This document shows, piece by piece, positions 1,803 through 37,417 of a DNA stretch of 64,000 nt (its first letter is position 1; each line of letters opens with the position of its first letter). Below the pieces are notes generated by a model. That model did not search any database. It worked only from the letters and a program-made list of their open reading frames with translations, and was not told the DNA's origin. The stretch comes from Sorghum bicolor (Eukaryota > Streptophyta > Magnoliopsida > Poales > Poaceae), in contig NC_012878.2 of NCBI RefSeq assembly GCF_000003195.3, forward strand, positions 39,184,751 to 39,248,750. The letters run 5' to 3'. Made by a program: the position numbers and the translations under genes.

Positions 1803-4407
1803 ATGGCCAATCCGAATGACAACATGGATGATGCAATGATGGTCCTAATCAATAGCGGCTCCAATCCAGATCCTCAAGGCGAAGATGATGGGAGTCAGTA
1901 CTTTGCTGATTATGAAGAATTTGTGGGAGACAATCTATCTACAATCTAGTATATATGTATATATATATATATGAAAATAAAATGAATAACGTTTGTATTA
2001 ATATATTTATACTTGTTTGTACAGCTCTTTAGATCGGCGACAACTTCTGAGAAGAGTAGAAAAGTGCGCGGCCCGAAGAAGCCGTTGGAGCCGTCTGTCG
2101 GAATTCGATGAGGGTACAGGACAAATACTTGGGGCAAATTCTAAAAAATTTATTGCGCACTGTGGATACCTTTGTAAGGGACAGGCTCCCAGTCAGTGCT
2201 CGTGAATGGAGGCAACGGAAAGATAACCCTAATATTAGTTTTGTCTCAGATCGTGACAAGGAATTGATTTGTCTAGATATCCTTTAACATTTCACACTCG
2301 ATATACAACATGAAGCTTTGAAGGAGAAGGTTAAAATCTGGGCTATGCAGAAGATGGCCAAACAATTTCAGGCTTGGAAGAAGACACTATACAAGACTTT
2401 TGTTGCACATGGCCGGACGCCGGATTTCACCAACAAGGCCTACGTCAAGTTGAGGCCTTTTTGGGATGACTTCTTAGAGTTTAAGAACTCAGAAGAGGGT
2501 CAGGCACAGATGATCAAGAATCAGGAAAATGCTAAACAAAAGCAATACCACCATCAGTTAGATTCATGTGGCTACAGGACTGCTATTCCTATGTGGCAAA
2601 AGCTGGAACACGAGATTCTTGAGAGAGGGATCGAACTAGAATCACTGCACCGGCTTGAGCGTGCTAAGTATTGGTTCCTTGGTCACGGAGGAACCATGGA
2701 CCTAGAGACCGAAAAGGTAGTGTACGGCGAAAAGCTCCAGAGAGTGGGACAGAGAATGGCCTATGCCCGAGGATTAGTTGAAAGTGGCACCTCGCAGCCA
2801 AATAGGGAGAAGGATGAGCTGACATACGCCCTGGAGACTGCTGAACACGGTGGGCGAACAAGAGGCTATGGGGAGGTATCGTGGGAGCATGGCTTCCCTA
2901 AAGATAGACCGACTTATAGAAGCCGGCAAAGAAATAAGGAAGAGGAAGCAGAGCGGTTGCGTAGGTTGGAGGCAGGGGTGATGGAGTCACGCGAAGCGGC
3001 TCGTGAAGCAATAGCGCGAGAGAAAGCGCTTGAAGAGAGAATGAACGAGGAGATCAAAAGGCAAGTGTAGATTGCAGTAAGTTTTCTATACAAAGGCAAA
3101 CTGCATCAGAGCCTGGAGTCAACATTAGCCCCCGGTCAGTTGAAAAGCAGTTGCGCTTCCATAGAGATGCCAACTATTTAAGACGACGTGGGGCTGCACT
3201 TTCCGGTGGATGACATCACTGAACCTCTGACAACATGTAAGCTGCACATTCCACAGAGGACTGCCACAGTCATGGTTGCTGTCGGTGTTGTAACTCCTGT
3301 CAACCCTACGAAGACACCAAGAATCCATGGGGCGATAGTTCCACCTGGATATGCTAGTGTCTCGGTGGATAGAGTTGTCAAAGGCTTCAGTAATGCGCAA
3401 CTTGAGATAGAAGGAGGTGATGGAGAGAAGACTCTATGAGAAGCATAGAAGACTTTCATTTGTTGGCGCAAGCGCTACGTCATTATTCCTGGGGCATCAC
3501 CTAGTAGTCTACCACCACCTCCTCTCATGAACCTAATCCTAGGTGCGGATGAAAATTGACTATACATTTATTCACTAACTTTATTTTGCATTCTCTTAGT
3601 TAGCGGTTTACTCATATACCTTTTTGGTTTCACAGGTGGTCACCAACATGTCATAGTGCTACGGGTGATGACGAGAGAGTGCAAGACATGGCTGCATCGC
3701 CTCGATCTCCAACGCCACCACCTTGGCCTCCAACGCCACCACCTCAGGCTCCAACACCGCCACCTCGGGCTCCACCTCGGGCTCCAACACCGCCACCTCG
3801 GGCTCCAACGCCACCACCTAGGGCTCCAACACCGCAACCTCGGGCTCCAACGCCACCTCCTCGGGCTCCAACACCACCACCGGCCGCCCCATCGCCTCCA
3901 CACATGGCTCCAGCACAAAAGAAGAGGCCGACCACACAACCAAATGTGTCGGCCGCCCCACCGCCAAAAAAGAAAGCCTCCAAAAAGAAACAACCTATCA
4001 TTCCTAAGAAGCTATCCTATGAGAAGACTGATACAAAACTAGATACTTCGGTAAAGTCAAATGTGGATAGTTTCTTCAAGAAACTTAAGAGTGAAAGAGA
4101 AGCCAAGCAAAACCCTGAGAAGCCATACCTCTTACTACAGCCAGAAGATCTACGACAAAGGGTTGAGGCTCAACAAAAAAAGAGGCGTGAAGCTTAGAAA
4201 GAATCATCATCTTTATCAGACTATGATCGCACTCTAAGGAAATCCATAGAAGAAGAGAAGAAGAAAGATAAAAGAGCATGCAAGGGTGTAGCACAGCTCG
4301 GGGAACAATCAAAGCAATCAGTGCCCCCACTAGTAATTGGAAATGAATATGGTTCAAACATCGATGCGCTAGATCAGCAGATACCGACAGATTTAAAATT
4401 TGATGAG
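1803..4407 (+). pseudogene. CACTA accessory transposase gene, part I (Transposase_24-like, DUF8039-like, Pro-rich)
   Basis: The ATG at 1803 opens a short acidic exon (starts MANPNDNMDD) with a possible donor at about 1950 and an acceptor at 2024. The best-preserved exon is 2318-3070. It contains RPFWDDFLEFKNSEEG, then ELTYALETAEHGGRTRGYG and the segment GFPKDRPTYRSR, characteristic of the plant Transposase_24 (Ptta/En/Spm) family, and a Glu/Arg-rich coiled coil at its end. The same frame continues past two stops into a DUF8039-like segment (3188-3439, PVDDITEPLTTCKLHIPQ and later PGYASVSVDR). Two further stops follow in the next 20 bases. A likely intron ends near 3635. The next exon (3679-4197) has about 14 APTPPP-type repeats and a basic stretch. 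A TAG at 4195 is followed by more in-frame sequence to 4407, where the Athila LTR begins. The gene is dead, through stops, frameshifts and insertions. Confidence 0.75.
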
Positions 4408-5892
4408 TGTTGACACTAGCTAACACCACTTAGATACTATGTTGTCGTCCCCAGTATCGTGCCAGAGTGTACAAATGTATTTATGAATGTAAAGGCTCTC
4501 TAGAAAATATTCTATTCTATCCGCAAGCGCACAGATAAAACACCTCATTGTAGCATTTCACCAGGTAAGTATTCCAGGTATCATTATTTATAATTTTGCT
4601 CAAGAGAAAAGGATTAAATGAAGATAAGGATAAATCTATCAAGGCATAGATTAGAGATAAACTTGCAGGAACATGATTACTAATGAGGAATTCGTCACAC
4701 AGTCACTTACTTTGGCAGGGGGTAAGCCATAATAATAATGATAATGAAATATAAGCTCATGGGTAAATAACACAGTGATTAGAAAATAGACTACTCCTCA
4801 AATATGTAAGGTGACGTCGGATTAGCTAGAGAATGGATTCTAAGTTATCTACTATCTACTAAGTCATAACCTACTCTAATTATCTACAAGATCATATATA
4901 GCATAAAAGACTCTTCATTCATGTATAAGGAACATTGCTAAAGTAAATCAGAACATCGTAAGACTTACTCCGCAATACAAATTCTGCCTGTCCTATCAAC
5001 GGAGGGTGGACTATATAAGAATCAACGAAGCTGTCACTATCGCAAACTACCACACGACCCGACCAATAGGATACATTTGCAGGTAAATAACATCTAAGCA
5101 CCACGCCCACATGTGATCTACCACTTAACTCCCGCGCGTCAAGAGCTAAGCGCTTTGCAAACTTATACGTAAACTCATTATCAATCATAACTATATCAAA
5201 TATAGAACTAGAGCAAACTAAGAGCATAATAAATAGAGACATAATGCAATTAGAACAAAGTATTAGATAAATATATGAAATAATACCAATCTTTATTAGC
5301 GAAGATCCGAATCTAGAGCACTTGGCTCTACTTCTCTAATTGCTATCTAATCAATCCTCTAAACTTGAAGGATTACGGAGTAGCTAATTCTAATTCTCTG
5401 TGGGAGAGATGTCTAAACCCTAACTTTGATGGCTACCTTTGATAATGATTTCTCCTCTCTCCCCCTGAGGTGGAGAGGCCTTGATTATATAGTCCTTTCA
5501 AGTGAATTTGGGTCGTCGGATCAAACCGACATTGATCGCACGATTTTCCTTGATCCTTTAGGTCGGTGGAGCATAATCCGCGAGACGGGTCCTCATTGGA
5601 CTCCTGGCCAGGGCGGGCGCCCTGCCCCCGAGCCCGTCCGGTTTCCCGTTCGTTCCCGTGGCTTCTGGACTCTTCTAGATTGAGGAAAATTGCATGGCAC
5701 GTAATTATCTCGTTGTAAACATGACATGTGGGCCTTCTCTCTATATTTTCTGATAACCCCCTGCAGAAATAGATAAACACCAAAGCTCGTGGAATTCTAT
5801 CAGATAAAACCCTAATTCTTGATGTTTGTTTCATTTGGATCCTTTTCCATGTTTAATTGATGGTTAAATTTAGTACTTAAGGACCGTCAACA
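4408..5892 (-). repeat. 3' LTR of the Athila element
   Basis: 1485 bp, TG...CA ends. The minus-strand TATA box lies at about 5484-5491 (complement CTATATAAT). Compared with the partner LTR at 24562-26067 it lacks 21 bp in the GC-rich block at 5602-5625, where short GGGCGGGCGCC repeats probably recombined. That indel accounts for the length difference of 1485 versus 1506 bp. Confidence 0.92.
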
Positions 5893-5910
5893 AACTGCCC
5901 CAAGCTTACC
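5893..5910 (-). promoter_or_regulatory. Polypurine tract of the Athila element
   Basis: Directly inside the left LTR. The minus strand reads GGTAAGCTTGGGGCAGTT up to the LTR start, the expected plus-strand priming tract for a leftward-reading LTR element. The gag-only element has a near-identical tract, GTAAGCTTGGGGGAGTT, at 33878-33894. Confidence 0.75.
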
Positions 5911-7649: not shown

Positions 7650-8586
7650 TCATCCTATATCGAATTGGGGCGGAGGTCTGGATCCTAAAGCTCCATATGG
7701 ATCAGTGGAGTACCTGCCCGTATGGAAAGGCGGGTTTGTCCACTGGTGATCTTGGCTCTGTGGCCAGGTCTCCTGTGTTGGCTCTTGTGGTTGAGCATGT
7801 CGAACCCATGGGTCCCGAAGGACTCGAGGGTTGTAGTCACAATAATGCAGGTGCGCTGCTTCTTCCGGCTCGGGATCAGCTCCATACCAGGTGCGTTCTT
7901 GATGGGTGGTCATCCTTTCGGATGCCACTCGTTGTGGAGCTCTCTGGTTTACTGGTGTCACTGCAATCTCAATCAAATAATTTTGAACAACATAGAGGCC
8001 AAGGTTTAGGTTAGGTAACCGAATATTGCCTTTATTATCGTATAACATATACATTATGTTCCCCTCTTTCTTTAACATCCGAGCTTGCCTAAAAGTGTCA
8101 TATCCATGATAAATCCGTAACTCATCTATGAATTCCAATGATGAGTTTTCTAGCAAATGAAGACTAGAGGCTAGACGAGTGATAAGTGAAGTACACCATA
8201 CAGGTCCCTGAAGACTAGGTATACTAAGCCAATGAGAAAACAAAAGTGTAACAGGTAAAGTGGGTACTCTATTTATAGCATCATATAGAAGTTGTAAATC
8301 TCCTACTCTTACTTTTCTAATATCATCACGATGGAAAAGATTGTACCCGAGCGATTTGTGGAACATCCTAAGAGTGGTGTGTTCCATGTCACTGGTTCGG
8401 GCTTGGCTATAAAACTCATCTCTAGATATCTCTCTCCAGAACTGGTGTCTCTCAAAATTGGGAAAATCGGAATCAATGTTCAAAATGCATCTTGAAGATA
8501 AACCGAGATGGTCGCTCCGTTCTCTCCAAGACAACATAATGTCCTGTTTGAACATCCGAAAAGCAATTCCGCCCACATAATATTGT
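7650..8586 (-). pseudogene. Athila extra ORF, C-terminal part (ATHILA ORF-1-like), split by Tat insertion
   Basis: A long open minus-strand frame of about 312 codons, running to a stop at 7650. It continues the frame of 21313-21016 once the nested element and one copy of its ATTGT duplication are removed. Visible features include WREISRDEFYSQARTSDMEH, a leucine-rich middle and a hydrophilic Gln/Pro/Glu/His-rich tail. By position (3' of protease) and style it resembles the plant ATHILA ORF-1 or env-like proteins, whose function is not established. The family assignment is tentative. Apart from the insertion I see no stop in this part. The first codons overlap the left edge of the Tat LTR and are not part of the original gene. 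Confidence 0.6.
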
Positions 8587-9310
8587 TGTTGGTGCAAAAA
8601 CTGTTCTGCAAACACAAAGGGCTAATACCCGATTAAACGTTGAGGCGTGCCAGCCGATTTGACCTTACTATCGGCAAGAGAGGTAACTCGAATACTTTGG
8701 TCCTAACAACAGCAATGCGCCCGGATGCAACGGCCAAGAGGTATTCACGCGGAACTTGAGAACACGCCGAGCTTAAGTCGACGAATTCCTAAGAACTCGT
8801 AGTAAAAAGAAAAAAGTATGACGAAGTCGTCGAAATAGTAGATACTGGAATATGAGTAAAAACTTGTGTTTGATTGATTGATCGATAGATATCTCAATAC
8901 AAGGCCCTAGGGTCTATATTTATACCCTGCTCAAAGAGCTACAACCAAACACGACTAAAATTCGAATTCCAAATTACACAGAATCCGTATATAAAACGAT
9001 TAAAATAACTAAGAAAACATAAAACTATTTCCCCCGTGGCAAGCTGGAACACCTCCACAAACCGATCGGCAACTTCCAAACTCTCCTTCCGTATCATCGG
9101 CAGACTCCCCTGTCATGGTCATCGGCAGACTCCCTTGCCATAGCCATCGGCACAGACACATCATCTCCTATGGACTTAGTCCCGTCCAACTCCTCCTTCA
9201 TCGGCAACCATCCTCATCGGCAACTCATCCTGCAGATAAAACACCGCCATCTTATCCTGCCGGCCTGTACTCTACCAAACATGGACACGTGCCCAAAAAC
9301 GGCGTCAACA
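8587..9310 (-). repeat. 3' LTR of the Tat element
   Basis: 724 bp starting TGTTGGTGC and ending GTCAACA. It is nearly identical to 20291-21015. The minus-strand TATA-like sequence TATAAATATAG is at 8914-8924. It contains about eight copies of GCCGAT or ATCGGC, mostly clustered at 9064-9220 as CATCGGCA. Confidence 0.95.
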
Positions 9311-9325
9311 CATGCCCCCCAATTT
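9311..9325 (-). promoter_or_regulatory. Polypurine tract of the Tat element
   Basis: Immediately inside the left LTR. The minus strand reads AAATTGGGGGGCATG up to the LTR start, matching the position and purine run expected for plus-strand priming in a leftward element. Confidence 0.7.
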
Positions 9326-9806
9326 CGAAGTATGAAATCGTTAATGCTCCGAAATTCTCTGCAGTAATGATGCCTTTTCCCACAATTAATGCTCCTAATC
9401 TGGTAACCGACAACCTCAATTTGAACAACTCTGATCCTGTTCTTTTGTAAATCCCTCGAAATCCTCAACATCCCAAACGGACATTTCCTTTTTAGTCGCA
9501 CATCGACAATATTACCGTTACAAGGATTTGTCGATGGACTGACCAGGATGCTCGTACCTTATCTTCCCAAACGGCTATCTCCACTTTATTCGCCCATCGG
9601 CAATATGACCGTTACAAGACGTTGCCGATGGACCGACCAGGAGATCCCGCACAGTGAAATATCTCTGAATAATGACCGCTTCCTGTCAAATCACCTGCAC
9701 AATCCCTTGATTACCGTGCGAACAGTTACCATATCTACCTGAGCACCCTCGGATTTCTCAGATGCGGCAAAGAGATAAGCCAGATTTGCCCTTGCCCGTT
9801 CTGTCC

Positions 9807-9814
9807 TATAAATA
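9807..9814 (+). promoter_or_regulatory. TATA box of the antisense gene
   Basis: TATAAATA lies 151 bp upstream of the ATG of the plus-strand plant-mobile-domain gene, with a pyrimidine-rich leader in between. It is independent of the LTR promoter and points the opposite way to the retroelement genes. The upstream segment 9326-9806 has no other gene and carries two GCCGAT-type motifs (about 9594 and 9625). Confidence 0.6.
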
Positions 9815-9964
9815 GTTCCTTCTCGGGTACTCCTTCTCCATCACATCATTCCACAACTCCAACTTCCCCTTTCTGACGGCGGCGCTGTCCAAAAGCTCCA
9901 AGATCTTCAACGAAGTCCCTTCTTTACCAACTCCGAAGCCCTCGCTCATCCTCCTCGTGACAAA

Positions 9965-12900
9965 ATGGCCGTCAACTTCATCATTCCTGAGGTCAGTTCT
10001 TCGCGCCATCCCTTGTACCTTTTCTCGCACCCCTGTTCATTCGCAATCTTACTGAGCATTTTCTTTTTCTTTCTTTGCATTTTTCTTTTCCACTAGGAAT
10101 TAGCCAACAAAATTGTCATCCCCACCGATCAGCCACACCTTCAATGCCTTGGCCCGCTAGGGGATCCAGATCCAACCGACCTTATAAACGCAGAAACCAA
10201 CAGGATCCCTTTTAGAGCAGAAAATTTTTCCTTGGATCTATGGAAAGACACTTTTTGTTCCTGGCCCAGCCCTACCGTGGGATGGAAGGATTGGTTCTTG
10301 AGGGTCAGCAACTCCAATGAAGTCTAGTGGGGCGAGAGAAAGCTAGACCAATGCATTAGGTTGTCCATTGCCGATATACATAGGAATGAATCACTGCTGA
10401 TAGCCGCATCATACTTTTGGTCAGACACCCTCAATGCCTTCGTCTTTGGCCATGGCCCTGCTTCCCCTACACTTGCCGATGTAGCCATGCTCACTGGCCT
10501 GGATGTATCTTCTGCCGATAGCACCCACTTATTCGATACTAAACCCAGTGCTAAGGTAGAAACCCGCACCATCGGCGGCTGGTCGGGAAATACCGCAAAA
10601 CAGGCCCTGTTGACACAAAAAAGCAGGCCTGCTTCCTGAACATGTGGCTAGACAAATTCGTGTTTTGCGGCCGATCGGCAGGACCAACTTCCGTTTATCT
10701 AGCAGCAGGAGAAAATCTGGCCAATGGTGGCCAATTTCCCCTCGGCCGATACCTGCTTGGAGCAGCCTATCACCTCCTCCACCAAGTAACCAAGAAGCTC
10801 TTACTCGGCCAGTCCATCGGTAATCTAGGAGGCCCTTGGTGGTTCATCAACATGTGGCTCAATCTCCATCTGCACAAGCGTCTTGAGTTTAACCTTTTCG
10901 CTCAGCATTTTCCAAGGGACATAGCCGAGAACCATGTGTTGGGTGAAGAAGAATCGGCAACACGCCCTCCCTTGAACTTCGGTGAAGCTGTCATAGCTCT
11001 GCCTGGTACAGGGGGTAATCCAGACCAGATTAGCCGATTCTTTCAAACCTTGTACGAAGGTTTGGCCAGAGATGAGCGAGCATGGTTGGCCTATGATGAT
11101 CCAGATACTATGTTTCCTCTGGTTTTCAACCCGTTTGATGAGGCTCTCGACAAGGATAACGAAGTAATGATGGCATTGGTGACTCCCAGAGCCATACCGA
11201 TGAACTTCTTTGGCAGTGGGAAAACATCTCCCCAAACTTATGAGTTCTATAATCCATCGGCACTAGCTCGTCAATTAGCTTTCGGCCAGCTGCCGATTGC
11301 ACTCTGTTATGCCGATGTGATAAAGCCAGAGAAACCATTAATAGCCTCCTTGAATGGATCCGAGTGGCCCAACTGCCATCAAGTGCCGATACAGATGTAA
11401 ACCTGTCAGAGTGGGTACCAGCCGCCTTCATCACTCAGGCGTACAAGCAGTGGTGGGCAGAATGGAAGGAGCACCTATTCTGCAAATCGGCTCTTTCGTA
11501 TCGCGGCATGATTGATCCTGAGTACGAAGTTCCTACTGACGCTGTAAGTATCTTTAAACCGATGTTTCAATTCTCTCAATTCTATTTCCGTCGGTAACTG
11601 ACTCTTTGTGTGATTTTTCAGGTCGATAACACTCCTCCGTCAGTCAGTAGAAGTGGCAAGCCGATTGACCTGTTTGCATCAGGTCCAATCTCTTCAATCG
11701 GCCACAATGCTCCCACCTTGGCCGCCATCGTACATCGAGGCATACGCCTCAAGAAGGTCACCACCAAGAGAACTCAGACATCACCATCGGTAGCTGCTTC
11801 CACCCTAGCACAGGCTTTTAAGGTAACTGCCAAACCTTTCCACTTATACCGATCTTACTTTTACATCGGCTATATTAGTACTGACAAATTCTCTTTTCTG
11901 TAACAGCAAACCAGTGCATCGGCAAGAACCAAAAGCAAAGGTGCCGATGCCCCCCAGTCCAGCCAGCAAAAGAGAAAGGGTACCAAAGGTACCAGAGCAC
12001 AGGCAAAGCGCCAGAGAGTAGCAACTCCCCCTCCGATATCTCCCATTCCAGTGGAATCTTCTCCTTCTCCCCCAGAAACAGAGACTCAACAAGTACCGTC
12101 TCCCCCTCAATTGCAAGAAGCACCGCAAGCAGAAGAACCCCAACAGGAAGAACCTCAATCAGAAACACCCCAGCCAGAAGACGCACTGGCCGATGTAGGC
12201 GAACAAACTACCGATCTGGCAGGTTTAATCATATCATCGGTAGTTTCCTCAATTCAGACAAGCATCGTCCCTCCTCAAGGTAACGCACTTTTATTACTTG
12301 CCGATGAACTTATTCTTTTTGGCCTTATAACCCCTTTCTGTTAATTTTTCAGCTGATGTAGTTCCATCGGCAACTCTGGCCGATCAACCCGTTGCTCCAC
12401 CGGCATCTTCCAGTCAAAGGCAAGAGATCGCTTTGAAGCAAGTAAGTTATCCAATCTCCATCAATATCACTTACCGATGCTCTTGCCATAGAACGACTCA
12501 CTTTGTTCTCCTTTTCAGGAGCAGGATTCTACCGATAGCCTATTCTCCTTCGCCATTGATATTTCTGAAGACGAAGGTGAGGAAGCAAGCTCCTCCCGGG
12601 CAGTTGGGATCGCATCGGCAGAGATCAGGGCTAAGCTGGAAGAACTATCGGCCCTCCTTCATCAAGACACGGCTCAACTAGTCGATGACTCTGATCCGGC
12701 CAAGGTTCTTTTCAAAACCCTCAGAGGCCAGATTCCTGCCGATGCCGAGGAAATCCTTTTCTAGGCCGCACACCTGGAGAGTCGTCAGTTGCAGTACCAG
12801 AGGGCCGCTCGGCGTCTTGCCGATAGAGCTGCTCAGACCCGGCTCTCTGAGGAGATGATGAAAGAGAAGCTCTTGACCGATGAGAAGCACAAGAACATCG

Positions 12901-13214
12901 GCACCTTGAGGTCCTCAGGAGACGCACTGAAGCAGAAGATCCTCGATTTATCGGCCAAGAGAGAAGCCCTGCTGGCAGAACTCAAGCAAGTGGAGGATGC
13001 CCTATCTCAAGCCCAACAGGAAGAGAGCCAACTGCCAGAGACCATCAAACTCCTTGAACAAGAGCGAAATGCCCATGGTCGCAAGGCACTGCAGTTGAAG
13101 AAGAAATTGAAGCTGATAGAAGGTTCTGCCGATGAAGATGTCAAAGAGATAGAAACAACCAACCAGATCCGCCTACGTGCCATATCGGCCATCCAAGCAC
13201 TGCTAAACATGTGA
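9965..13214 (+). pseudogene. Antisense plant mobile domain (PMD) gene with C-terminal coiled coil, six exons
   Basis: Proposed exons are 9965-9991, 10097-11543, 11622-11822, 11907-12279, 12353-12441 and 12519-13214. All five introns are GT...AG (donors GTCAGT, GTAAGT, GTAACT, GTAACG, GTAAGT) and phases match across every junction. Exon 2 holds the mobile domain: a Trp-rich N-part, then SLLIAASYFWSDTLNAFVFG, ADVAMLTGLDV, FLNMWLDKFVFCG and YLLGAAYHLL. This is the plant mobile domain seen in MAIN/MAIL1 and in many transposons. Exons 3-5 are basic, then Pro/Gln/Glu-rich. Exon 6 encodes a long charged coiled coil ending ISAIQALLNM. Breaks in this copy: TAG at 10325, a one-base shift near 10600, another near 11345-11365, and TAG at 12762. 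It lies between IN and the 3' LTR, opposite to gag-pol. Extra antisense ORFs are known in Tat elements. The role of this protein is unknown. Confidence 0.8.
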
Positions 13215-13275
13215 ACATTTCATCGGCAATGCACCTGCCTCTTCCTGCTCTTCAGCTTTCTTGCTGTTTAGTCTA

Positions 13276-13360
13276 GCCGATAGGACTGTTATCGGCATCT
13301 CTTTGAAACATTAAGTCCTGCCCTAAACATTTTAATCCAGCCGATAGGAGTGTTATCGGC
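13276..13360. repeat. Duplicated inverted GCCGATA/TATCGGC pair between convergent genes
   Basis: Two copies, 64 bp apart, of an inverted repeat with arms GCCGATA and TATCGGC around a 7-bp spacer (13276-13296 and 13340-13360, both with AGGA.TGT spacers). They lie in the 156 bp between the stop of the antisense gene (13214) and the stop of integrase (13371). They could form hairpins, act as paired protein sites, or mark transcript ends. The function is unknown. Confidence 0.75.
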
Positions 13361-13370
13361 ATTTAAACTT

Positions 13371-15290
13371 TTATGCATCGACCCATATGCTGGGGTAGTA
13401 CTTTTTTAAATACTTGCCATTTAATGCTGTGGGAAATTCAACTCCTTCGAGAGTTTCTAGAATATAGGCGTTACCAGGAGCTGATCGACTTATCCGATAG
13501 GGACCCTCCCAATTAGGAGACCACTTTCCAAACTTCGAACTTTTAGTCCCAATTGGTAAAATTAATTTCCATACCAAGTCTCCATTGGCAAACTCCTTAG
13601 CCTTCACTTTTTTGTCATACCATCTAGCAATTCTTTTCTTATTCTCTTCTACACTCATCAAGGCCCTTAGCCGATGCCCTGCCAGATCATCTAACTCGTC
13701 TGTCATCAAAGTAGCATAATCATCGACAGCCAACTGATCTTGAAAAGATAATCGCCTAGATCCAGCCTTAATTTCCCAAGGTAATACTGCATCATGCCCA
13801 TACACCAGCTGATATGGTGAAACCTTGGTTGATCCATGACAAGCCATCCGGTATGACCATAAAGCTTCATTTAACAATGTGTGCCACCTTCTAGGATTTT
13901 CTTCAATCTTCCGCTTAATAAGCTTAATAATTCATTTGTTAGATGCTTCGGCCTGCCCATTGGCTTGAGCATAGTAAGGAGAAGAATTCAACACCTTAAT
14001 GCCCATACCGATCGCGAATTCATCAAACTCCCCTGATGTAAACATAGTGCCCTGATCGGTAGTAATTGTTTGAGGAATCCCAAATCGGTAAATAATATGC
14101 TCCTTCACAAAATCAATCATATTGGCCGATGTGACCTTCTTCAAAGGAATAGCTTCAACCCATTTAGTGAAATAATCAGTGGCAACTAGAATAAACTTAT
14201 GCCCTTTGCTAGATGGCGGATAAATCTGGCCGATCAAATCAATAGCCCATCCTCGGAACGGCCAGGGCTTCATAATAGGATTCATAGCCGATGCAGGTGC
14301 CCTTTGAATATTACCAAACTTTTGGCATCCTTGGCATCCTTTGAAGTACTTAAAGCAATCCTCAAGTATAGTCACCCAATAATATCCATTCCTCCTAATC
14401 ATCCACTTCATCTTGAAAGCCGACTGATGTGCTCCACATACCCCTTCATGGATTTCTCCCATCAAACTCTTAGCTTCATCATCCCCTAGGCATTGGAGAA
14501 GGATCCCATCAATAGTTCGATAGTACAATTCATCTTTGAGGAGCACATATTTGGTTACTTGAAACCGAACTCGTCTTTCGACTTTCTTGGATGGATCTTT
14601 CAAATAATCAACGATTTCTTTTCTCCAATCATCGGCACCAATTGCCGATATTGCATTAATCATGGGCTGATATCCCGAAGCATGCTGAGCCAACCAATTT
14701 GCCTCTTCATTATGCAATTGAGGAACATACTCTAAATGGAAATCCTTGAATTCCTTTAACAGTTGCATGCTCCTCTCGTAATAACTTATGAGAACTTCAC
14801 TTCGGCATTCATAGCTCCCAGCCAATTGATTTATAACTAGCATAGAATCCTCGAAGACCTCAACAGCATCAGCATGAACTTCCCTCAAAAACTCTAATCC
14901 CTTTATTAAAGCTTGATACTCTGCCTGATTATTTGTTGACGTGGCAACAATCGGCAAAGAGAACTCATACTTCCTTCCCCGAGGGGAAACTAGTACTATG
15001 CCGATTCCTGCCCCCCGGTCACATGTGGATCCATCAAAGAACAGTGTCCAAGGTACAATTTCCAAAGCTTCCACCGTACCACAATGTTGAGTTACAAAAT
15101 CGGCCATAATCTGTCCCTTAACTGCCTTAGCCGATTCATAACGCAGATCGAACTCTGACAGCGCCAAAATCCATTTACCGATCCTGCCACTCATAATCGG
15201 CATAGACAGCATGTACCAGACCACATCATCTTTGCAAATAACAGTGCATTCGGCTGATAACAAGTAGTGCCTTAACTTGATACAAGAGAA
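13371..15290 (-). pseudogene. Tat RNase H end, second RNase H and integrase
   Basis: The minus frame continues from RT through a frameshift near 15290. First come the end of RNase H (SAECTVICKDDVVWYMLS), then a second, archaeal-type RNase H with the acidic positions FFDGS, NNQAEYQAL and FEDSMLVI. At its last acidic site the sequence reads EEANWLAQ, so the usual Asp looks replaced. Integrase follows: an HHCC zinc region (GVCGAH ... CQGCQ) and the DDE core (AIDLIG, TTDQGT, GQAEAS). A TGA at 13932 splits the core from the C-terminal part (WSYRMACHGSTKVSPYQLVYG). That part ends with WEGPYRISR and a stop at 13371. With a premature stop and a frameshift this copy should be inactive. It converges on the antisense gene. 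Confidence 0.88.
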
Positions 15291-16603
15291 ATATAAGCAT
15301 GGCACAGTTTCTCAATAGCCGAATACCTGGTCTCAGCATCAATCAACCTTCTGCTTAAATAATAAATTACACGCTCCTTTCCTTCAAACTCTTGAATTAA
15401 AGCCGAACCGATGACCATCCCATCGGTAGACAAATACAATCTGAAGGGCTTCCCTTGCTGAGGTGGAATCAGAACTGGAGGATTCACCAAATAATTCTTG
15501 ATTTCATCCAGAGCCAACTGCTGTTCTTTTCCCCAAACAAACTCTTGACCGGCCTTTAGCTTAAGAAGAGGACTGAAAGCACGAATTTTACCAAACAAAT
15601 TAGATATAAACCTTTTGATAAAATTTACCTTGCCGATCAAGGACTGGAGCTCAGTCTTGTTGGTAGGGGCTACTATCTTATTGATGGCATCAATAGATCT
15701 TCGACTGATTTCAATCCCCCTCTGGTGAACCATGAAACCGAGGAATTGCCCTGCCGATACACCCAATGCACACTTGTTGGGATTCATTTTCAAACCGTGC
15801 TTCCTCGTGCATTCCAACACCTTTCGTAAATCAGCAAGATGCTTTGCGAAGTCTCCAGACTTAACCACCACATCATCAATATAGATCTCCACCAGCTTAC
15901 CGATGAACTCATGAAAAATAAAATTCATGGCCCTTTGATATGTAGCACCAGCATTCTTTAGGCCAAAGGTCATTACTATCCATTCAAACAACCCGACATG
16001 ACTAGGACATCTAAATGCAGTCTTTGGAATATCCTCTTCTGCCATGAATATTTGATTGTATCCTGCATTGCCATCCATAAAGCTAATGATCCGATGCCCA
16101 GCCGCGGCGTCAACCAGCAGATCGGCAACAGGCATTGGTTATCCATCCATCAGCGTAGCTTTATTGAGATTCCTGAAATCAATACATACCCGAAGCTTCC
16201 CGTTCTTCTTGTAGACCGGAACAACATTGGAAATCCATTCGGCATACCGACACTGCCGAATAAACTTAGCTTCATTAAGTTTGGTGGTTTCGGCCTTAAT
16301 ATCAGGGAGGATATTAGGATTACATTGGCGAGCTGGCTGCTGATGTGGCCGAAATCCAGACTTGATAGGCAACCGATGTTCAACAATTGATCGGTCCAAA
16401 CCAGGCATCTCAGTATAATCCCAAGCAAAGCAATCTTTATATTCCTTTAACAAATCAGTTAACTGTTGCTTACACTCAGAATCTAACTTAGCACTAATAA
16501 AAGTGGGTCTAGGTTTATCACCACTACCTATATCTACTTCTACTAGATCATTGGCCGATGTGAATCCCTGGCCTAATTTTCCATCATCGGCGAACCTATC
16601 CAT
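15272..16603 (-). pseudogene. Tat reverse transcriptase
   Basis: RT core on the minus strand: YAEWISNVVPVYKKNGK and CIDFRNLNKAT, then a TAA at 16139. It resumes in the same frame with MDGNAGYNQI (first catalytic Asp), VMTFGLKNAGATYQ and the YIDD box (EIYIDDVVVKSG). The thumb and connection follow, and then the first RNase H domain (PFRLYLSTDGMVIGSALIQE). The frame ends at 15272 after a frameshift into the next segment. The catalytic residues are kept, so decay came through stops rather than active-site change. Confidence 0.9.
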
Positions 16604-17427
16604 TAAAAACCTTCATCAGAACCGACTGCTTGGATCGGTGGAATTTCGTAATCGGCAACCTTGAGAAAATCTTTTTCTCAAACTTCTCCTGAAATACACC
16701 TAGTCTTTTCATAGGTGTCTGCTTCTGCCGATGCAATGACATAAGAAGAATCTCCTCGGACAATTTCAATCTTGTCACCTACCCACTGGACCAAGCATTG
16801 GTGCATTGTAGATGGGATGCAACAATTGGCATGAATCCAATCTCTTCCCAACAGTAAGTTGTAAGCACCCTTTCCACTGATCACGAAGAAGGTTGTCGGC
16901 AAGGTTTTGCTACCGATGGTCAACTCTACACATATTGCCCCCTTGACCGGAGACACATTACCTTCAAAATCTTTAAGCATCATATCGGTTTTGGTTAAAT
17001 CTTGATCCCCTTTTCCAAGCTTCCGATACACTGCATATGGCATGATGTTGATAGCAGCTCCTCCATCAATTAGGATCTTAGTCATCGGCTGCCCGTCAAC
17101 CCTTCCTTTGACAAACAGAGCCTTGAGATGTTGCCTTTCATCATCAGCAGGCTTCTCGAAGATAGCTGTCATCGGATCTAGAGCCAACTGAGCTATTTGG
17201 TCGGAAAACTCCACCTCATCATCACTGGATGGCGCAAGGAACTCCATCGGCAACATTAAGACCATGTTGACATCTGCCGATGGGCCTTCTCCCTTAGGAT
17301 CTGGTTGTTGCTGATCTCCAGGCTGTCCAGAGCTCTCCCCTTTGCTTAACTCTTCTCGCCTTTCGCGCTGCAGCCTTCGTTTCTGTGTCCTAGTCAACCC
17401 TTCTGGACACCATGGAGGAAGTTGCTG
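16604..17427 (-). pseudogene. Tat protease region
   Basis: The same frame as gag continues past a TAG at 17428: a basic linker (TRTQKRRLQRERREEL), an acidic segment, then the aspartic protease (KILIDGGAAINIMPYAVYRK; flap and GAYNLLLGRDWIH). The active site reads DGG where most retropepsins have D[S/T]G. A TGA at 16678 is followed by in-frame sequence (VADYEIPPIQAVG) to about 16610, where the frame shifts toward RT. Confidence 0.85.
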
Positions 17428-20244
17428 CTACCTTGCCGCTGGACGATGATGTCCCCTTGACTCCATCCGATGCGTGTTAGCATCCCTGCAAAATATGAAC
17501 TCATCGCGAATCCGTGCATTAGCCATCTCCTCAAGTTCTTCCTGGTTCCTGGGAAAATATTGGACACGATCACCAAACCTGTCGTGCACACTGAGCCTGC
17601 CCCCCAGCCGATCATGGACGGATGCTCTCCCTCTAATTCGCCCGTCGAAACGCCGATCATTATCACGATAGTTCCGATCGGACCTGTCGTACCGATCATA
17701 ACCGTTGCACTCAGGGCAATCTCTGACAGTAGGAAGCTTGATATTCTCCTCCCAGCAATGGATGAAGAACAGACAATTCCAGTGATCCCTATGCTGATTC
17801 CACTCCTGTCGGCGTCTTTCTTCTTCCCGTCGATAATCCTCCTGCTGGCGCCGATATCGGCCTTCACGTTGCTGCCAAGTTTCCCGAGGTCTTCTGTGAG
17901 TTATAACGATACCAGATCGGGGAGGCCTTCCTGAGCTAGTTCCTTCTTGGACCAAGCCCCTTCCTCTCGCATCGGCAGTAGTGACTTGATGCTGAGGATC
18001 CACCGATGCACTTCTTTCGGCTGCTTCTGATGTTAAGACCTTGGCCTTTCCCTTAGCGTCTAGCATGTTTGTTGGGAAAGGATGTTGGTCAATCTTCATC
18101 GGCTTCTGGGTCTTGGAGCTGTCAAATTTGATCCTTCCAGATTCTATAGCCGATTGCAGCTGTTGTCTGAAAACCTTACACTCATTGGTGTCATGGGAAG
18201 TTGCATTGTGCCACTTGCAATATTTCATCCTTTCTAATTCTTCAGCTGATGGGATCACATGATTAGGGGACATCTTGATTTGACCTTCCTGAAGTAGAAA
18301 GTCAAATATCCTATCGGCCTTAGCAGTGTCGAACGCGAACTTCTCTGGTTCTTTATGTCCAACAGGACAAGACATCGGCTTCTTATTCTTCACCCATTCT
18401 GCCAAGCCGATGACTGGTTCCTCATCAGAATCTGAGCTTATTGCTTCATCAACAAACGATACCTTTTTGTTCCATGCTCTCTTGGGTTCAAACGGCTTGA
18501 TGTCTTGATCGGAGATTCTCTGCACTAGATGACTTAAGCTTTCAAACTCCTGAGATGCATATTTGTCCCTGATGTGTGGCAACAAACCCTGGAAAGCCAA
18601 ATCGGCTAGCTGCCGATCATCCAGAACCAGACTGTAACATTTGTTCTTGACCTCTCGTATCCTCTGCACAAAACTTTCAACCGATTCATCATTGCGTTGC
18701 CTCAATTTGACCAAATCGGTGATCTTCTTCTCATGGACCCCAGAAAAGAAGTATTTGTGGAATTGTTTTTCTAGATCGGCCTAAGTAATCACTAAGTTGG
18801 GAGGTAGTGATATAAACCAAGTAAAAGCCGATCCAGACAATGACGACGAGAATAGACGAACCCTCAACTCGTCCCTGTTACCAGCTTCACCGCATTGAAT
18901 AATGAATCTGTTGACGTGCTCCATGGTTGACGTGTCATCCTGCCTAGAAAACTTAGTAAAATCCGGTACCTTGTACCGATGTGGAAGCGGGATCAAGTCG
19001 TATGCAGGAGGATACGGTGTCCGATAAGAGTAAGTATTGACTTTGGGTTTTATCCCGAATTGGTCTCTCATCACTTCAGCAATCTTATCGGCCCAGTATG
19101 CATCGGCATCGTGCCGATGGGGCGGTTGCGGATCAGGTGCCTGCTGGAAAGCTTCCACGCGTCGGTGTGGCGCACGATCTGCATGAAACATTGGGTTAAT
19201 CAACTGGCCCCCAATCTGTGGACCACCAAACTGTTGCCCGCCAATCTGCTGCCCGAGACTCATTGGCTGGTTAGGGATCCCCTGATTCTGGAACCCGGGA
19301 TAGACTTGTCCTTGCTGAAACCCGGTAGCTTGATGATTCTGTCGGGGCGTTTGCGGAAAGACTTGCTGCCCAAGCCATCCATTATTAGCATTCATCGGCA
19401 CAGGTCCTGCCGATGACTGATAATTGGGCATTATCATTGAGTTGTCATACCCTGGCTGAGTCATAGACCTCTGTTGCATCAGCATTGAGTCTGCCGATGC
19501 ATTAGGCATCTGAAACGTTGGAGCTTGAGAATTCCCAGTGTAAGGTCTTGCAGTAGTAGTTGTGGTATACTGGGGATTCTGGTTCATCGGCATATTGGGA
19601 GGTGCCGATGCCATAGGAGTCTTGCCTCTCATATCGGTTGTCTGCGACATACCCGGCGTTAACTCTGGTAGCATGCCGTAACCCCACCAGTTAGGAGGAG
19701 GAGTCAATTCTGACGTTGCTGATGCTAACAGATCTGTAGCGAGTTTGATCTGCCCATCTGAAGTCTGTGAATTGGTCGTCATCGGCATAGACTGTCCATT
19801 GGTGATTCCCAATGTGCTTGGCGGAACAGGAATCTCCATGCCCGCAGCGGCCGTAGCAGCCGATGGAGCTGTGACCACTGGTGACTTTGGCTGGTGATAA
19901 GTGGGGCCCACATAATCTGGTGGCAATTGTCCCTCCTTGAAAGTTCTTGCCACGGCATTGAAAACCGTATTAGACAGTACACCAGCTTGGTTGATCAAAG
20001 CACGGTTGATAGCGCTGTCAACCATCTCTTGAAGTTTGCCAGGATTGGACTCAAAAGTAACCTACCGAGGTGCCAGCAGTGCATCCTTCTGAATCACCTC
20101 ACTGCTCCTGTTCATGCTGAAGGACCTCAGGCATTGCTGCTTGTAATCCTCCATGGCTTTAGCAATAGCTTGCTTCTGCTCATCCTTGAGATTGGCTTCC
20201 GTCACGGGGATGACATTCTCTTGATCAAACTCAGAAGTCGACAT
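17428..20244 (-). pseudogene. Tat gag polyprotein
   Basis: The ATG at 20244 (MSTSEFDQEN) starts one long minus frame down to a TAG at 17428, broken by TAGs at 20062 and 18781. The N-terminal third is Gln/Pro/Met-rich (19.2-19.9 kb). The retrotransposon gag core covers about 18.5-18.95 kb (for example SVESFVQRIREVKNKCYSLV). A zinc-binding CKWHNATSHDTNEC segment (about 18.2 kb) and a second Cys-rich element (HCWEENIKLP ... CPECNG, about 17.7 kb) follow. The stops look like single-base transitions. The start was chosen because it is the first ATG after the primer-binding region. Confidence 0.88.
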
Positions 20245-20267
20245 GTTGATCCTGATCTTGAATCTGT

Positions 20268-20290
20268 CCCACTGGGCATGCCAAAAGATG
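20268..20290 (-). promoter_or_regulatory. Primer-binding-site region of the Tat element
   Basis: Next to the right LTR, minus strand, reading CATCTTTTGGCATGCCCAGT. Its place directly after the sense 5' LTR is that of a tRNA primer site, and TTTGGCNNGCCCNGTGGG-like sites are common in Tat elements. I cannot assign the tRNA with certainty. Confidence 0.55.
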
Positions 20291-21015
20291 TGTTGGTGCA
20301 AAAGCTGTTCTACAAACACAAAGGGCTAATACCCGATTAAACGTTGAGGTGTGCCAGCCGATTTGACCTTACTATCGGCAAGGGAGGTAACTCGAATACT
20401 TTGGTCCTGACAACAGCGATGCGCCCGGATGCCACGGCCAAGAGGTATTCACGCGGAACTTGAGAACACGCCGAGCTTAAGTCGACGAATTCCTAAGAAC
20501 TCATAGTAAAAAGGAAAAAGTATGACGAAGTCGTCGAAATAGTAGATACTGGAATATGAGTAAAAACTTGTGTTTGATTGATTGATCGATAGATATCTCA
20601 TTACAAGGCCCTAGGGTCTATATTTATACCCTGCTCAAAGAGCTACAACCAAACACAACTAGAATTCAAATTCCAAATTACACAGAATCCGTATATAAAA
20701 CGATTAAAATAACTAAGGAAAACATAAAACTATTTCCCCCGTGGCAAGCTGGAACACCTCTACAAACCGATCGGCAACTTCCAAACTCTCCTTCTGTATC
20801 ATCGGCAGACTCCCCTGTCATGGTCATCGGCAGACTCCCATGCCATAGCCATCGGCACAGACACATCATCTCCTATGGACTTAGTCCCGTCCAACTCCTC
20901 CTTCATCGGCAACCATCCTCATCCGCAACTCATCCTGTAGATAAAACACCGCCATCTTATCCTGTCGGCCTGTACTCTACCAAACATGGACACGTGCCCA
21001 AAAATGGCGTCAACA
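20291..21015 (-). repeat. 5' LTR of the Tat element
   Basis: 725 bp, partner of 8587-9310, with TG...CA ends and the ATTGT duplication directly outside at 21016. It has about seven GCCGAT/ATCGGC copies. One copy present in the partner (CATCGGCA near 9214) is CATCCGCA here, a point loss. Confidence 0.95.
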
Positions 21016-24251: not shown

Positions 24252-24561
24252 AGCTTCAGCAATTGGTAGGTAGCTTCTTCTTCCTTTCTTGATTACTTTG
24301 GTTCTGATGATGAAGAGTTGAATGTACCAAAGTCAATTCTGATATACCCTGTATAAAAATATAAACATAGAAAAACAACAAGGTGAACCTGCCAAAGCAG
24401 AGGTGCCTTGTTATGATTTCTCACTTAGTAGCTGTTTTATGCAATTATTTCTCTATAGTCTAGTCTAATATTTTATATGAATAACCTTGACTGATTTCCT
24501 GACTTTCCTTACCGTTCGTATGTGTTTCCTTCTAGTCCCCGTCAACGGCGCCCGAAATGCT
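24252..24561 (-). other. Athila 5' leader with primer-binding site
   Basis: 310 bp between the sense 5' LTR and gag. The primer-binding site is about 24536-24553 (minus strand GGGCGCCGTTGACGGGGA), a two-base variant of the TGGCGCCGTTGCCGGGGA site (tRNA-Asp type) seen intact in the gag-only element at 28665. Confidence 0.7.
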
Positions 24562-26067
24562 TGTTGACACTAGCTAACACCACTTAGATACTAGGTTGAC
24601 ATCCCCAGCATGGTGCCAGAGTGTACAAAGGTATTTATGAATGTAAAGGCTCTCTAGAAAATAATCTATTCTATCCGCAAGCGCACAGATAAAACATGAC
24701 ATTGTAGCATTTCACCAGGTAAGTATTCCAGGTATCGTTATTTATAATTTTGCTCTGGAGAAAAGGATTAAATGAAGATAAGGATAAATCTATCAAGGCA
24801 TAGATTAGAGATAAACTTGCAGGAACATGATTACTAATGAGGAACTCGTCACACATTCACTTACTTTGGCAGGGGGTAAGCCATAATAATAATGATAATG
24901 AAATATAAGCTCATGGGTAAATAACACAGCGATTAGAAAATAGACTACTCCTCAAATATGTAAGGTGATGTCGGATTAGCTAGAGAATGGATTCTAAGTT
25001 ATCTACTATCTACTAAGTCATAACCTACTCTAATTATCTACAAGATCATATATAACATAAAAGACTCTTCATTCATGTATAAGGAACATTGCTAAAGTAA
25101 ATCAGAACATCATAAGACTTACTCCGCAATACAAATTCTGCCTGTCCTATCAATGGTGGGTGGACTATATAAGAATCAACGAAGCTGTCACTATCGCGAA
25201 CTACCACACGACCCGGCCAATAGGATACATTTGCAGGTAAATAACATCTAAGCACCACGCCCACATGTGATCTACCACTTAACTCCCGTGCGTCAAGAGC
25301 TAAGCGCTTTGCAAAACTTATACATAAACTCATTATCAATCAAAACTATATCAAATATAGAACTAGAGCAAACTAAGAGCATAATAAATAGAGACATAAT
25401 GCAATTAGAACAAAGTATTAGAGAAATATATGAAATAATACCAATCTTTATTAGCGAAGATCTGAATCCAGAGCACTAGGCTCTACATCTCTAATTGCTA
25501 TCTAATCAATCCTCTAAACTTGAAGGATTAGGGAGTAGCTAATTCTAATTCTCTGTGGGAGAGATGTCTAAACCCTAACTTTGATGGCTACCTCTGATAA
25601 TGATTTCTCCTCTCTCTCCCTGGGGTGGAGTGGCCTTGATTATATAGTCCTTTCAAGTAAATTTGGGTCGTCGGATCAAACCGACATTGATCGCACGGTT
25701 TTCCTTGATCCTTTAGGTCGGTGGAGCATAATCCGCGAGATGGGTCCTCATTGGACTCCTGGCCAGGGCAGGCGCCCAAGGGGGGAGGGCGGGCACCCTG
25801 CCCCCGAGCCCGTCCGGTCTCCCGTTCGTTCCAGTGGCTTTTGGACTCTTCTAGATTGAGGAAAATTGCGCGGCACGTAATTATCTCGTTGTAAAATGAC
25901 ATGTGGGCCTTCTCTCCATATTTTCTGATAACCCCCTACAGAAATAGATAAACACCAAAGCTCGTGGAATTCTATCAGATAAAACCCTAATTCTATATGT
26001 TTGTTTCATTTGGATCCTTTTCCATGTTTAATTGATGGTTAAATTTAGTACTTAAGGACCGTCAACA
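24562..26067 (-). repeat. 5' LTR of the Athila element
   Basis: 1506 bp, TG...CA ends, partner of 4408-5892. It has the fuller form of the GC block (25765-25805, two GGGCRGGCRCC units). Its U3 side is related to the LTR of the gag-only element from the first bases (TGTTGACGGTCCTTAAGTA on the minus strand). Confidence 0.92.
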
Positions 26068-26072
26068 ATGAG

Positions 26073-27316: not shown

Positions 27317-28656
27317 TGTTGACGGTCCTTAAGTATCAAATTTAATTATCAAATAAATAAAGAAAAGGATCCAAATACAACCAACATCTAAACTTAGGGT
27401 TTTATCTGACAGAATTCCACGAGTTTTGATGTTTGTCTATTTCTGTAGGGGGTTATCAGGAAATATGAAAGAAAGGCCCACACGTCGGGTTTACATAGAG
27501 ATATTAACGTGCCGCGCAATTTTCTACCATCTAGAAGACTCCAGAAGCCACGGGAACGAATGGGAGGCCGATCGGGCCCGGGGGCAGGGCGCCCGCCCAA
27601 GTCCCTTGGGTGCCCGCCCAGCTACAGTAACCAATCAGCTTCAACTTCGCGGATCATGCTCCACCAACCTAATACTTCAAGGAAAACCACACGATCAATG
27701 TCGGTTTGATCCGACGGCCCAGATTCATCTGAAAAGACTATATAACCAGACCCCCTGGCCCCTGGAGGAGGCACCCCTTGATCATTATTCATTATTCATA
27801 GACAGAGCAAAAGCTAGGGTTTAGAGATGAGAGCTCTCCTCTCTTCTCTAAACTAGAGTAGATCTAGATAGTAGCAAGATGGAGAGCGAAGGAGGATTAG
27901 AGGAGAGGCCGGCCTGTCGGTTCTTCCTCCGGTTGTACTTCGTCATGATCAAGCTCTAATCAAGCTTGCTCATGGGATGACTCTGGTAATCTACTTCTAA
28001 TTCATTATGCAATTGCTAATTATGTATGTTCTGGTTCACAACTCTTTTGAGTACTTTAATCTATAGGACGCTATAGGTGAGAGTTGTAGTATAGGTGTAA
28101 GCGAGGTGCTTAGATCTAGATTACTTGTGGTATCCCTTGTCTAGCTGGATCGTGTGGTAGGCCGCGTAGGTGACAGTTACGTTGGTCCTCTGTAGTCCAC
28201 CTCTCGTTAGCAGGACGGGTAGGGTTTATCGGCCTATGGATAAGCATCCTTTGTGGTGTACTCTTATCACGTGGTTCGTCCCAGACATAGACATACTCCT
28301 TTGAAGTAGAGAAACCATAGTTATCCTCTCTATTCTGCTACCATCGCCCATATACTAGAATTGCTCTACTCTCTATTACCATATTATCACTCACTGTTAT
28401 CTTACCTTTAATATTGTTCTTATTCGATTCTACCATCTTTCCTATTTACACCTATTTACTTATCTTGGTTAAGTTAGAGCGTAGATCAGTTCTCCCGTTT
28501 CCCTGTGGATACGATAAAACCTTTAACCGGATAAAAATCTTCAACGGTATCCGTGCGCTTGCGGATTATCTGTGTGCGTATAAATACCATAGTACACTCT
28601 AGTGCCATGCTGGGGATGACAACCTAGTATTCAAGTGGTGTTAGCAAGTGTCAACA
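27317..28656 (+). repeat. 5' LTR of the gag-only element
   Basis: 1340 bp starting TGTTGACGGTCC. The TATA box TATATAA is at 27739-27745, and the GC block with CGCCCGCCC repeats is at 27575-27625. It ends CAAGTGTCAACA. Confidence 0.93.
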
Positions 28657-36533: not shown

Positions 36534-36547
36534 CACTACTGCATACG

Positions 36548-37080
36548 GAGGCTTTGCCGAGAGCCACAGACTCTCGGCAAAGGCAATCCTGCTCTCGGCA
36601 AAGCCTTTGCCGAGAGGGACTCTCGGCAAAGCCCTATCGGCACATCTCTTATCGGCAAAATGGTCTTTGCCGAGAGTCATTCATCGGGCTCTCGGCAAAG
36701 AGTTTGCCGAGAGGCAAACCGAGCTCTCGGCAAAGAAAAGTAGCCGTTACGGCTGTTGGCGGTTGACGGCAACTTTGCCGAGAGCTACCTGACCAAGCTC
36801 TCGGCAAAGAAATTTATTTTTTTTTCCTGGGAAAGGTCTTTGCCGAGAGCTGGCAGGAGTGCTCTCGGCAAAGTATTTATTTTTTTTTTTGAAACCTCTT
36901 TGCCGAGAGCCTCCAGAGGGCTCTCGGCAAAGCTGGTTATTTTGGACATGTAGGTGGGCTTCTTTGCCGAGAGCCCTGGAGCCGGCTCTCGGCAAATCGA
37001 CCATTTTTCAGTTTTGCCGAGAGTCCCTCTCGGCAAATCGACCACTTTTTCAGCTTTGCCGAGAGATGCTCTCGGCAAAT
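36548..37080. repeat. Subterminal hairpin array, left side of second CACTA
   Basis: About nine inverted pairs of TTTGCCGAGAG ... CTCTCGGCAAA separated by short variable spacers, with roughly 60-bp spacing. Every pair could form a strong stem. Open frames across this array are translations of the repeat (SAKSLPRG-type strings) and not genes. Confidence 0.92.
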
Positions 37081-37417
37081 GGACCAAAATATTTTTTTTC
37101 TATTTTTTCATCCAATTTCTACTGAGAAGATCATATGACACATATATTTCCAGAAAATAATATATTTCACATCCAGGAGCCTATAGCTCACATAATCGAC
37201 ATCGATGACAATATATACCACATAAATGATTATTTCCATCACTTTGTCCATCGTAACAAGTTCAAATACTCCAAACTAAAGTCACATACATCCAAACTAA
37301 CTCCAACATGTTCAATAACCACATTCCACAAAGTTCACATGTTTAAACAAAATAAATCCATCACCACATAGTCCACATACTCCAAACTAACTGCATCTCA
37401 AGCTAAGTCGACCTGAC

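Follow-up and report, generated by a model that had tools for sequence, protein, structure and literature searches.

A GCCGAT-centred word, TRCCGATG, saturates coding and non-coding DNA of a Tat-clade retrotransposon in Sorghum bicolor and may be read by the element's own antisense plant-mobile-domain protein

The VANDAL elements of Arabidopsis, which are Mu-like, are paired with short motifs (YAGTATTAY for VANC21, AGTTGTCC/AGTTGTAC for VANC6), and a transposon word accompanied by an accessory gene is known as a kind from these elements. The VANC motifs occupy non-coding tandem repeats (PMC5735166; here and below, sources are cited for the passages that deal with the feature named), and in VANDAL21 the protein binds non-coding parts of the element while its effect spreads (PMC5735166, PMC10398659). 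The Tat clade of Ty3/gypsy long terminal repeat (LTR) retrotransposons is defined by a second RNase H (aRH) located between RNase H (RH) and integrase (PMC6317226). Antisense genes are common in Ogre- and Retand-type retrotransposons and have no known function (PMC7264820, PMC11963269); 57% of Ogre elements carry a plant mobile domain (PMD) gene and 23% of Retand elements carry Transposase_28 (PMC6317226), an antisense Transposase_28 gene being present in 97% of Retand clusters (PMC11963269). DNA binding has been predicted for the Retand antisense TRP28 proteins, but their function is not known (PMC11963269). The DNA analysed here is a 64,000 nt stretch of the Sorghum bicolor contig NC_012878.2 (the window), plant DNA full of nested transposons. 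Between nt 8587 and 21015 it carries a Tat-clade element with an antisense PMD gene, in which the word GCCGAT (ATCGGC on the opposite strand) is present in great excess. We tentatively suggest, as a reading that is possible but somewhat doubtful in its full form, that this is a retrotransposon family with an element-wide code, TRCCGATG, read by its own antisense PMD protein, with motif drive dictating codon choice, and perhaps some amino acids, in gag, pol and the gene for the reader.

The hexamer occurs 98 times in the element (7.9/kb) and 17 times in the remaining 51,571 bp of the window (0.34/kb; 1,100 N included), a 23-fold difference, and the 7 kb flanking the element on either side hold 2 and 1 copies. 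Expected counts for the element are 5.0 from base composition, 4.9 from a first-order Markov model and 3.4 from composition with the motif masked, while 200 dinucleotide shuffles averaged 5.2 copies and never exceeded 12, the top count for any hexamer being 29. Neither base composition nor dinucleotide content can therefore be the source (expectations of 3.4-5.0 and a shuffle maximum of 12, against 98). These counts bear out a preliminary description made by eye, which had reported 8 and 7 copies in the LTRs, 38 in 9311-13370 and 45 in 13371-20290, and the enrichment over shuffled controls lies well beyond the 3-fold threshold named there. The two orientations, described as equally used, number 46 (GCCGAT) and 52 (ATCGGC; p = 0.61). 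Among near matches, ACCGAT had also been called frequent and is found 31 times (3.5 expected); the others are GCTGAT (18, 7.5 expected), GCCAAT (12, 7.4), GCCGAC (4, 2.3) and CCCGAT (3, 4.0). RCCGAT has 129 copies inside the element and 26 elsewhere in the window, and for TRCCGATG the numbers are 45 and 2. Within the window the enrichment is confined to the element: in seven of the eight other segments compared (6 kb, the last 4 kb) no hexamer is more extreme than about 1e-7. The eighth, in which CGAGAG/CTCGGC reaches 1e-31 to 1e-33, contains a CACTA-type array with a word of its own.

The element and its parts are as follows.

8587-21015, minus strand: Tat-clade Ty3/gypsy LTR retrotransposon, with LTR pair, target-site duplication and domains; 98 GCCGAT/ATCGGC; copy not intact
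20291-21015, minus strand: 5' LTR; 7 motif copies
8587-9310, minus strand: 3' LTR; 8 motif copies
10328-10636, plus strand: antisense gene, N-terminal part of the plant mobile domain (PF10536, E = 2.1e-8)
10555-11397, plus strand: antisense gene, main part of the plant mobile domain; 10 motif copies
11253-11594, plus strand: antisense gene, continuation in a further frame; resembles the end of relative P0121, no Pfam match
12765-13211, plus strand: antisense open frame, coiled-coil-like, perhaps the 3' part of the same antisense gene
13212-13370, no strand: 159-bp spacer where pol and the antisense gene converge; 5 motif copies
13371-16603, minus strand: pol frames (reverse transcriptase (RT), RH, aRH, integrase); 16 motif copies
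16678-17397, minus strand: protease frame; 4 motif copies
17428-18714, minus strand: gag frame, with gag relatives; 12 motif copies
18781-20025, minus strand: gag frame, with gag relatives; 11 motif copies

Coding sequence carries the word at 7.7/kb (ten frames, 7,923 bp) and non-coding sequence at 8.2/kb (the remaining 4,506 bp); 61 of the 98 copies fall within the ten frames examined. Genes of either strand contain copies, and each of the six phase and orientation classes is represented, by 4 to 19 copies. When synonymous codons were shuffled within each frame (1,000 trials), the mean number of copies was 11.6 and the maximum 21, against the 61 observed. The present amino acids permit the hexamer at 111 positions, and the occupied fraction of 0.55 is the highest among the 1,840 hexamers having at least 30 permitted positions (median 0.07, 99th percentile 0.28); used sites count as permitted by definition, which applies equally to every hexamer compared. 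The earlier claim that codon or amino-acid bias is an insufficient explanation thus holds: the synonymous shuffles and the used-versus-permitted count exclude codon use and amino-acid content as the source. The motif overrides codon choice, and it is over-used beyond the constraint of codons and composition, as expected of an element-wide code.

Traces of the word in relatives of the encoded proteins are mixed. At motif sites, residues compatible with the motif were found in 1045/1347 cases where identity was at least 75% (6989/9989 for control hexamers), in 930/1706 below 75% (5057/12281) and in 14/29 in other frames (70/326; Fisher p = 0.002). The control hexamers had a CpG and four G/C and came from the same protein alignments; the rows are related rather than independent, and the differences are modest. 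Compatibility was also higher at used than at permitted but unused sites in all five identity bands having more than one sequence (0.78 v 0.71, 0.46 v 0.31 and 0.29 v 0.16; for PMD, with just two unused sites, 0.83 v 0.67 and 0.70 v 0.51).

The full site is T-(G>A)-CCGAT-G, that is, TRCCGATG, and is non-palindromic. TGCCGATG is observed 32 times where 0.25 would be expected (element counted with one LTR). At its second position G is enriched 126-fold and A 63-fold, C and T never occurring; T is favoured before the core and G after it, and single substitutions within CCGAT reduce the enrichment to 0-11-fold. Judged from this sequence profile, the site is probably a protein contact of about eight bases and not a palindrome. 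In the columns from -25 to +30, only -2, -1, +6 and +17 (p = 0.002) differ from background at p < 0.01. Since the flanks are otherwise unrelated, most copies must have arisen separately and not from one duplicated unit. Duplication is rejected as the main route on these grounds, though some copies do stem from it, lying in tandem repeats of 25 bp and 16 bp in the LTR, a 94-bp repeat at 9471-9642 and a repeated inverted pair near 13.3 kb. Spacing is near random (median 66 bp, coefficient of variation (CV) 1.07), helical phasing is absent (Rayleigh p of 0.56, 0.20 and 0.96 at periods of 10, 10.5 and 11), and adjacent copies are oppositely oriented in 56 of 90 cases (binomial p = 0.026).

Density is somewhat uneven along the element (chi-square p = 0.015 over 13 segments). 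No copy lies in the 265 bp that follow the 5' LTR, and the five copies of the 159-bp spacer at the convergent gene ends amount to 31/kb. In 10097-13211, the region of the antisense gene, there are 31 copies (10.0/kb); the densities are 9.3 and 8.8/kb in the gag frames, 3.6/kb in the RT-RH frame and 2.0/kb in the last integrase frame. In the 5' LTR, five copies in the same direction lie at sense positions 106-241, upstream of a TATAAA at 388, and in the 3' LTR six same-direction copies lie at 9065-9216, partly in the 25-bp and 16-bp tandem repeats. This one-directional, partly tandem array is the most VANDAL-like stretch of the element. Comparison of the two LTRs showed that one of their 21 differences touches a motif copy. 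Within the convergent-end spacer, two near-identical inverted motif pairs, each with a short gap, lie 64 bp apart (13276-13360) and are possibly a terminator-like or regulatory module.

The LTRs are 724 and 725 bp long with a mutual identity of 97.1%, and ATTGT flanks the element on either side as a 5-bp target-site duplication, as expected of a Tat-clade element. Protease, RT, RH, aRH and integrase domains were detected, and the gag frames were recognised through protein relatives. Frame 13935-15305 specifies aRH (RVT_3, residues 90-209) followed by H2C2 and rve, with RT and RT_RNaseH in the preceding frame; the second RNase H thus stands between RH and integrase, which places the element in the Tat clade. 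The best named protein relatives come from grasses (Oryza 63%, Panicum 52-55%). The pol of this copy appears interrupted, because the relatives P0001 and P0007 read through its frame borders in one continuous frame. At the gag/protease junction (17394-17867) a second open frame overlaps gag2, and because several relatives align in that other frame, frames may shift or splice there. The Tat element is nested in an apparent Athila-type element (4403-26068) with direct repeats at 4403-5893 and 24557-26068 and an ATHILA ORF-1 match at 7653-8615.

The antisense gene was correctly described as a plant-mobile-domain gene. PF10536 matches at 10328-10636 (34.2 bits, just under the curated cut-off of 34.9) and at 10642-11397 (E = 3.9e-4, 20.2 bits), and full-length relatives exceed the cut-off (P0137, 66.3 bits). 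There are 493 PMD relatives at E <= 1e-3, with 57-96% identity among the 120 matches listed. Relatives such as P0121, which are predicted proteins, run through the PMD in one frame; the present copy spreads the domain over three, so its gene appears interrupted. An additional PMD gene is a feature of the Ogre lineage and is found here, with PF10536 just below its cut-off. Transposase_28, which in antisense orientation marks Retand, gave no match at E <= 1 in eight pieces of the antisense region and two relatives, although a spliced or broken domain could escape such pieces.

Wider searches returned no plant copy of the element. Among viral contigs, a protein pattern search matched seven stretches with no relative among them, and alignment matched 236 of 282 stretches, the best 80 being 27-33% identical over the RNase H part. 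At least 516 of 584 stretches from genome contigs matched, the best 80 all bacterial or archaeal and 30-41% identical, and plasmids gave five records (26-39% identical). Among the papers listed from the open-access library searched, none described a word spread over a whole retrotransposon, a word with an accessory gene in an LTR retrotransposon, or a word saturating coding sequence.

The motif and its distribution are solid; from them we infer a reader and a function. Since the word fills over half of its permitted positions, something appears to read the element DNA along its full length, each added site having paid, and the observations call for a sequence-specific DNA reader and selection on the number of sites. 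It is highly probable that a protein binds the motif. TRCCGATG would then be the target of a sequence-specific protein that binds double-stranded DNA, and selection acting between copies of the element would plant the site wherever the proteins tolerate it. Whether that protein is encoded by the element is a matter of even chances. An element-encoded reader is preferred, given that the saturation is specific to the element, that an antisense gene is present and that VANDAL provides a precedent. The likeliest candidate would be the antisense PMD protein of the family itself, which would act in trans on every copy, alone or together with host partners. Given such a reader, its effect would probably be on silencing or transcription rather than on complementary DNA (cDNA). 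The PMD protein would recognise the element along its full length and prevent its silencing, or reactivate it, in the way VANC acts on VANDAL, with the one-directional array in the U3 part of the LTR as the promoter-proximal part. Sites could accumulate even within genes because copies richer in sites would attract more of the protein that all of them share. Taken as a whole chain, that the copies are binding sites under selection for a single DNA-binding protein, possibly the antisense PMD protein, serving a VANC-like self-recognition or anti-silencing, this explanation is plausible but falls short of an even chance.

Several results weigh against it. The DNA-level evidence comes from one element copy, and with its PMD and pol frames interrupted this copy is not itself an active pair. 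DNA binding is putative for PMD proteins as a whole, and AlphaFold models of the PMD (24 and 85 sequences) reached mean predicted local distance difference test (pLDDT) values of only 31.7 and 37.9. The host PMD proteins MAIN and MAIL1 have links with the silencing of transposons and with a short DNA motif found in the promoters of their targets (PMC7156037, PMC9899485), but their contact with chromatin is not established, and the associated DOWN motif, CATGCAGTTT, differs from TRCCGATG and is rejected as the identity of the word (PMC9899485). CpG transitions between the LTRs affect 0/9 sites in motifs and 7/32 elsewhere, the direction expected of protected sites but not significant (p = 0.31) and no proof. 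Whether the motif shaped the proteins has a mixed outcome at the sequence level. Pooled over the ten frames, motif-permitting positions stand at 1.96 times the composition expectation, rank 1 of 2,080 hexamers; this is not taken as proof because used sites are permitted by definition and because the results by relatedness and against homologues are mixed. With falling relatedness the excess declines in aRH-INT (1.90, 1.83, 1.30, 1.30) but not in gag (2.03, 1.99, 1.98, 1.85, 1.77) or PMD (2.02, 2.23, 2.26), and against homologues aRH-INT is in excess (ranks 152, 14 and 11 of 2,080) while the PMD frame is not (1227, 1688 and 1571). Finally, the motif is equally dense in coding and non-coding DNA and mostly dispersed, where the VANC setting is non-coding and tandem. 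In sum, the interpretation first proposed is partly supported, in its enrichment, its element specificity and its antisense PMD gene, and its self-recognition system is putative.

Other readers of the word can be envisaged. That a host transcription or chromatin factor reads it, the element having accumulated sites for it and the PMD gene being unrelated to the word, is unlikely but is the most serious alternative, as the site profile is typical of protein contact and five to six same-direction U3 copies stand ahead of the TATA box. Enhancer sites would, however, be expected in the LTR and not across gag and pol, and the other elements of the window, in the same genome, show no such pile-up. 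The core recognised by DREB/CBF factors is RCCGAC, and the match fails at the last base, GCCGAC not being enriched (4 vs 2.3 expected), so a DREB/CBF site was rejected. A tag on the cDNA is rather improbable. It would be bound along its length by Gag, integrase, PMD or some further factor so as to protect the cDNA, bring it into the nucleus, integrate it or favour the element's own copies, comparable to bacterial DNA-uptake sequences. Coverage of the full length in both orientations, coding sequence included, and the near-random spacing (CV 1.07) agree with such a tag, which nevertheless does not predict the one-directional U3 array. Whole-length coverage fits a chromatin effect that counters silencing along the body of the element, and fits the cDNA tag about as well; the U3 array points rather to transcription.

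A very small chance is left for the word acting in RNA, through pairing of complementary copies or a protein that reads one orientation of the transcript. The excess of oppositely oriented neighbours would suit this, and so would the predicted folds, in which GCCGAT is paired with ATCGGC for 36/90 instances (sense) and 43/88 (antisense) in overlapping 300-base windows without a shuffled control; the two inverted pairs of the 159-bp spacer could also form hairpins. Yet in 26 opposite neighbours within 60 bp the complementarity stops at the motif (mean extension 0.6 and 0.7 bases), pairing would tolerate many words and not one, and reading of a single strand does not predict equal orientations (46 v 52, p = 0.61). 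RNA hairpins were thus rejected as the main cause, with pairing possible for some copies. Least credible is composition, codon bias, mutation bias or duplication without selection. The duplicated copies already listed speak for it, but it is largely refuted by the dinucleotide and synonymous shuffles and the unrelated flanks, as well as by the near absence of the word from the adjoining 7 kb (2 and 1 copies) and the single LTR difference, among 21, that touches a motif.

Should the PMD protein prove to be the reader, LTR retrotransposons would join Mu-like DNA transposons in having element-encoded sequence-specific control; the PMD family would gain a DNA-binding role, with a hint of how host PMD silencing proteins began. 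The count of used versus permitted hexamers provides a simple screen for other such systems.

Elsewhere in the window, a second, distantly related gypsy element (about 52.7-55.4 kb) has gag and RT, lacking the Tat word, at 52700-55267, its RT pieces being 35-42% identical to the Tat element, and five GCCGAT are spread across 51-59 kb around it. A further repeat pair (27317-28430 and 33895-35008; 99% alike, 6,578 bp apart) is partly similar to the inverted Athila-like repeats. An open hAT transposase frame of 639 amino acids lies at 47784-49703 (Dimer_Tnp_hAT, E = 3.7e-33), and a WI12 (wound-induced protein) frame at 40709-41452 (E = 1.4e-26) adjoins the following element.

36534-40265: apparent CACTA element, probably non-autonomous, between CACTACTG...CGTAGTG ends and flanked by ACA on either side; 33 TTTGCCGAGAG repeats in two end arrays

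Subterminal repeats of CACTA elements, a known kind of transposon motif array of which this would be an example, are read by an element protein in known cases. Like the Tat word, they are short, in many copies and in both orientations, and TTTGCCGAGAG is similar to but different from GCCGAT; both words contain TGCCGA, which may be coincidence. The CACTA repeats are limited to two non-coding end arrays in largely regular alternation, unlike the Tat motif. Bacterial DNA-uptake sequences offer a parallel in layout, a single word running through coding and non-coding DNA in both orientations, spread by a reader that favours its carriers; they serve bacterial transformation, and no homology is claimed. 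Retand elements are Tat-clade relatives whose antisense TRP28 (Transposase_28) genes lie between pol and the 3' LTR, and an element-wide motif is not mentioned in the passages cited (PMC11963269, PMC7264820). Ogre elements share with the present one a PMD gene and the aRH between RH and integrase, the passages cited again mentioning no motif (PMC6317226); by its PMD gene the element may belong to Ogre. With VANDAL the Tat element has in common an accessory gene and an element-specific, high-copy short word, and for VANDAL a benefit to the element from recognising its own copies has been proposed (PMC5735166, PMC10398659). To this extent the parallel first drawn with VANDAL stands, but not as to location, with 61 of the 98 copies in coding sequence and tandem arrangement limited to part of the LTR and a few spots. 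VANDAL is a Mu-like DNA transposon with a VANC gene, whereas the present element is an LTR retrotransposon with gag-pol and a PMD gene; for VANDAL, coding probes without the motif bound poorly and binding and demethylation have been demonstrated, where for the Tat element binding is a prediction. By membership, the Tat element is not a VANC system, but by analogy it may work like one.

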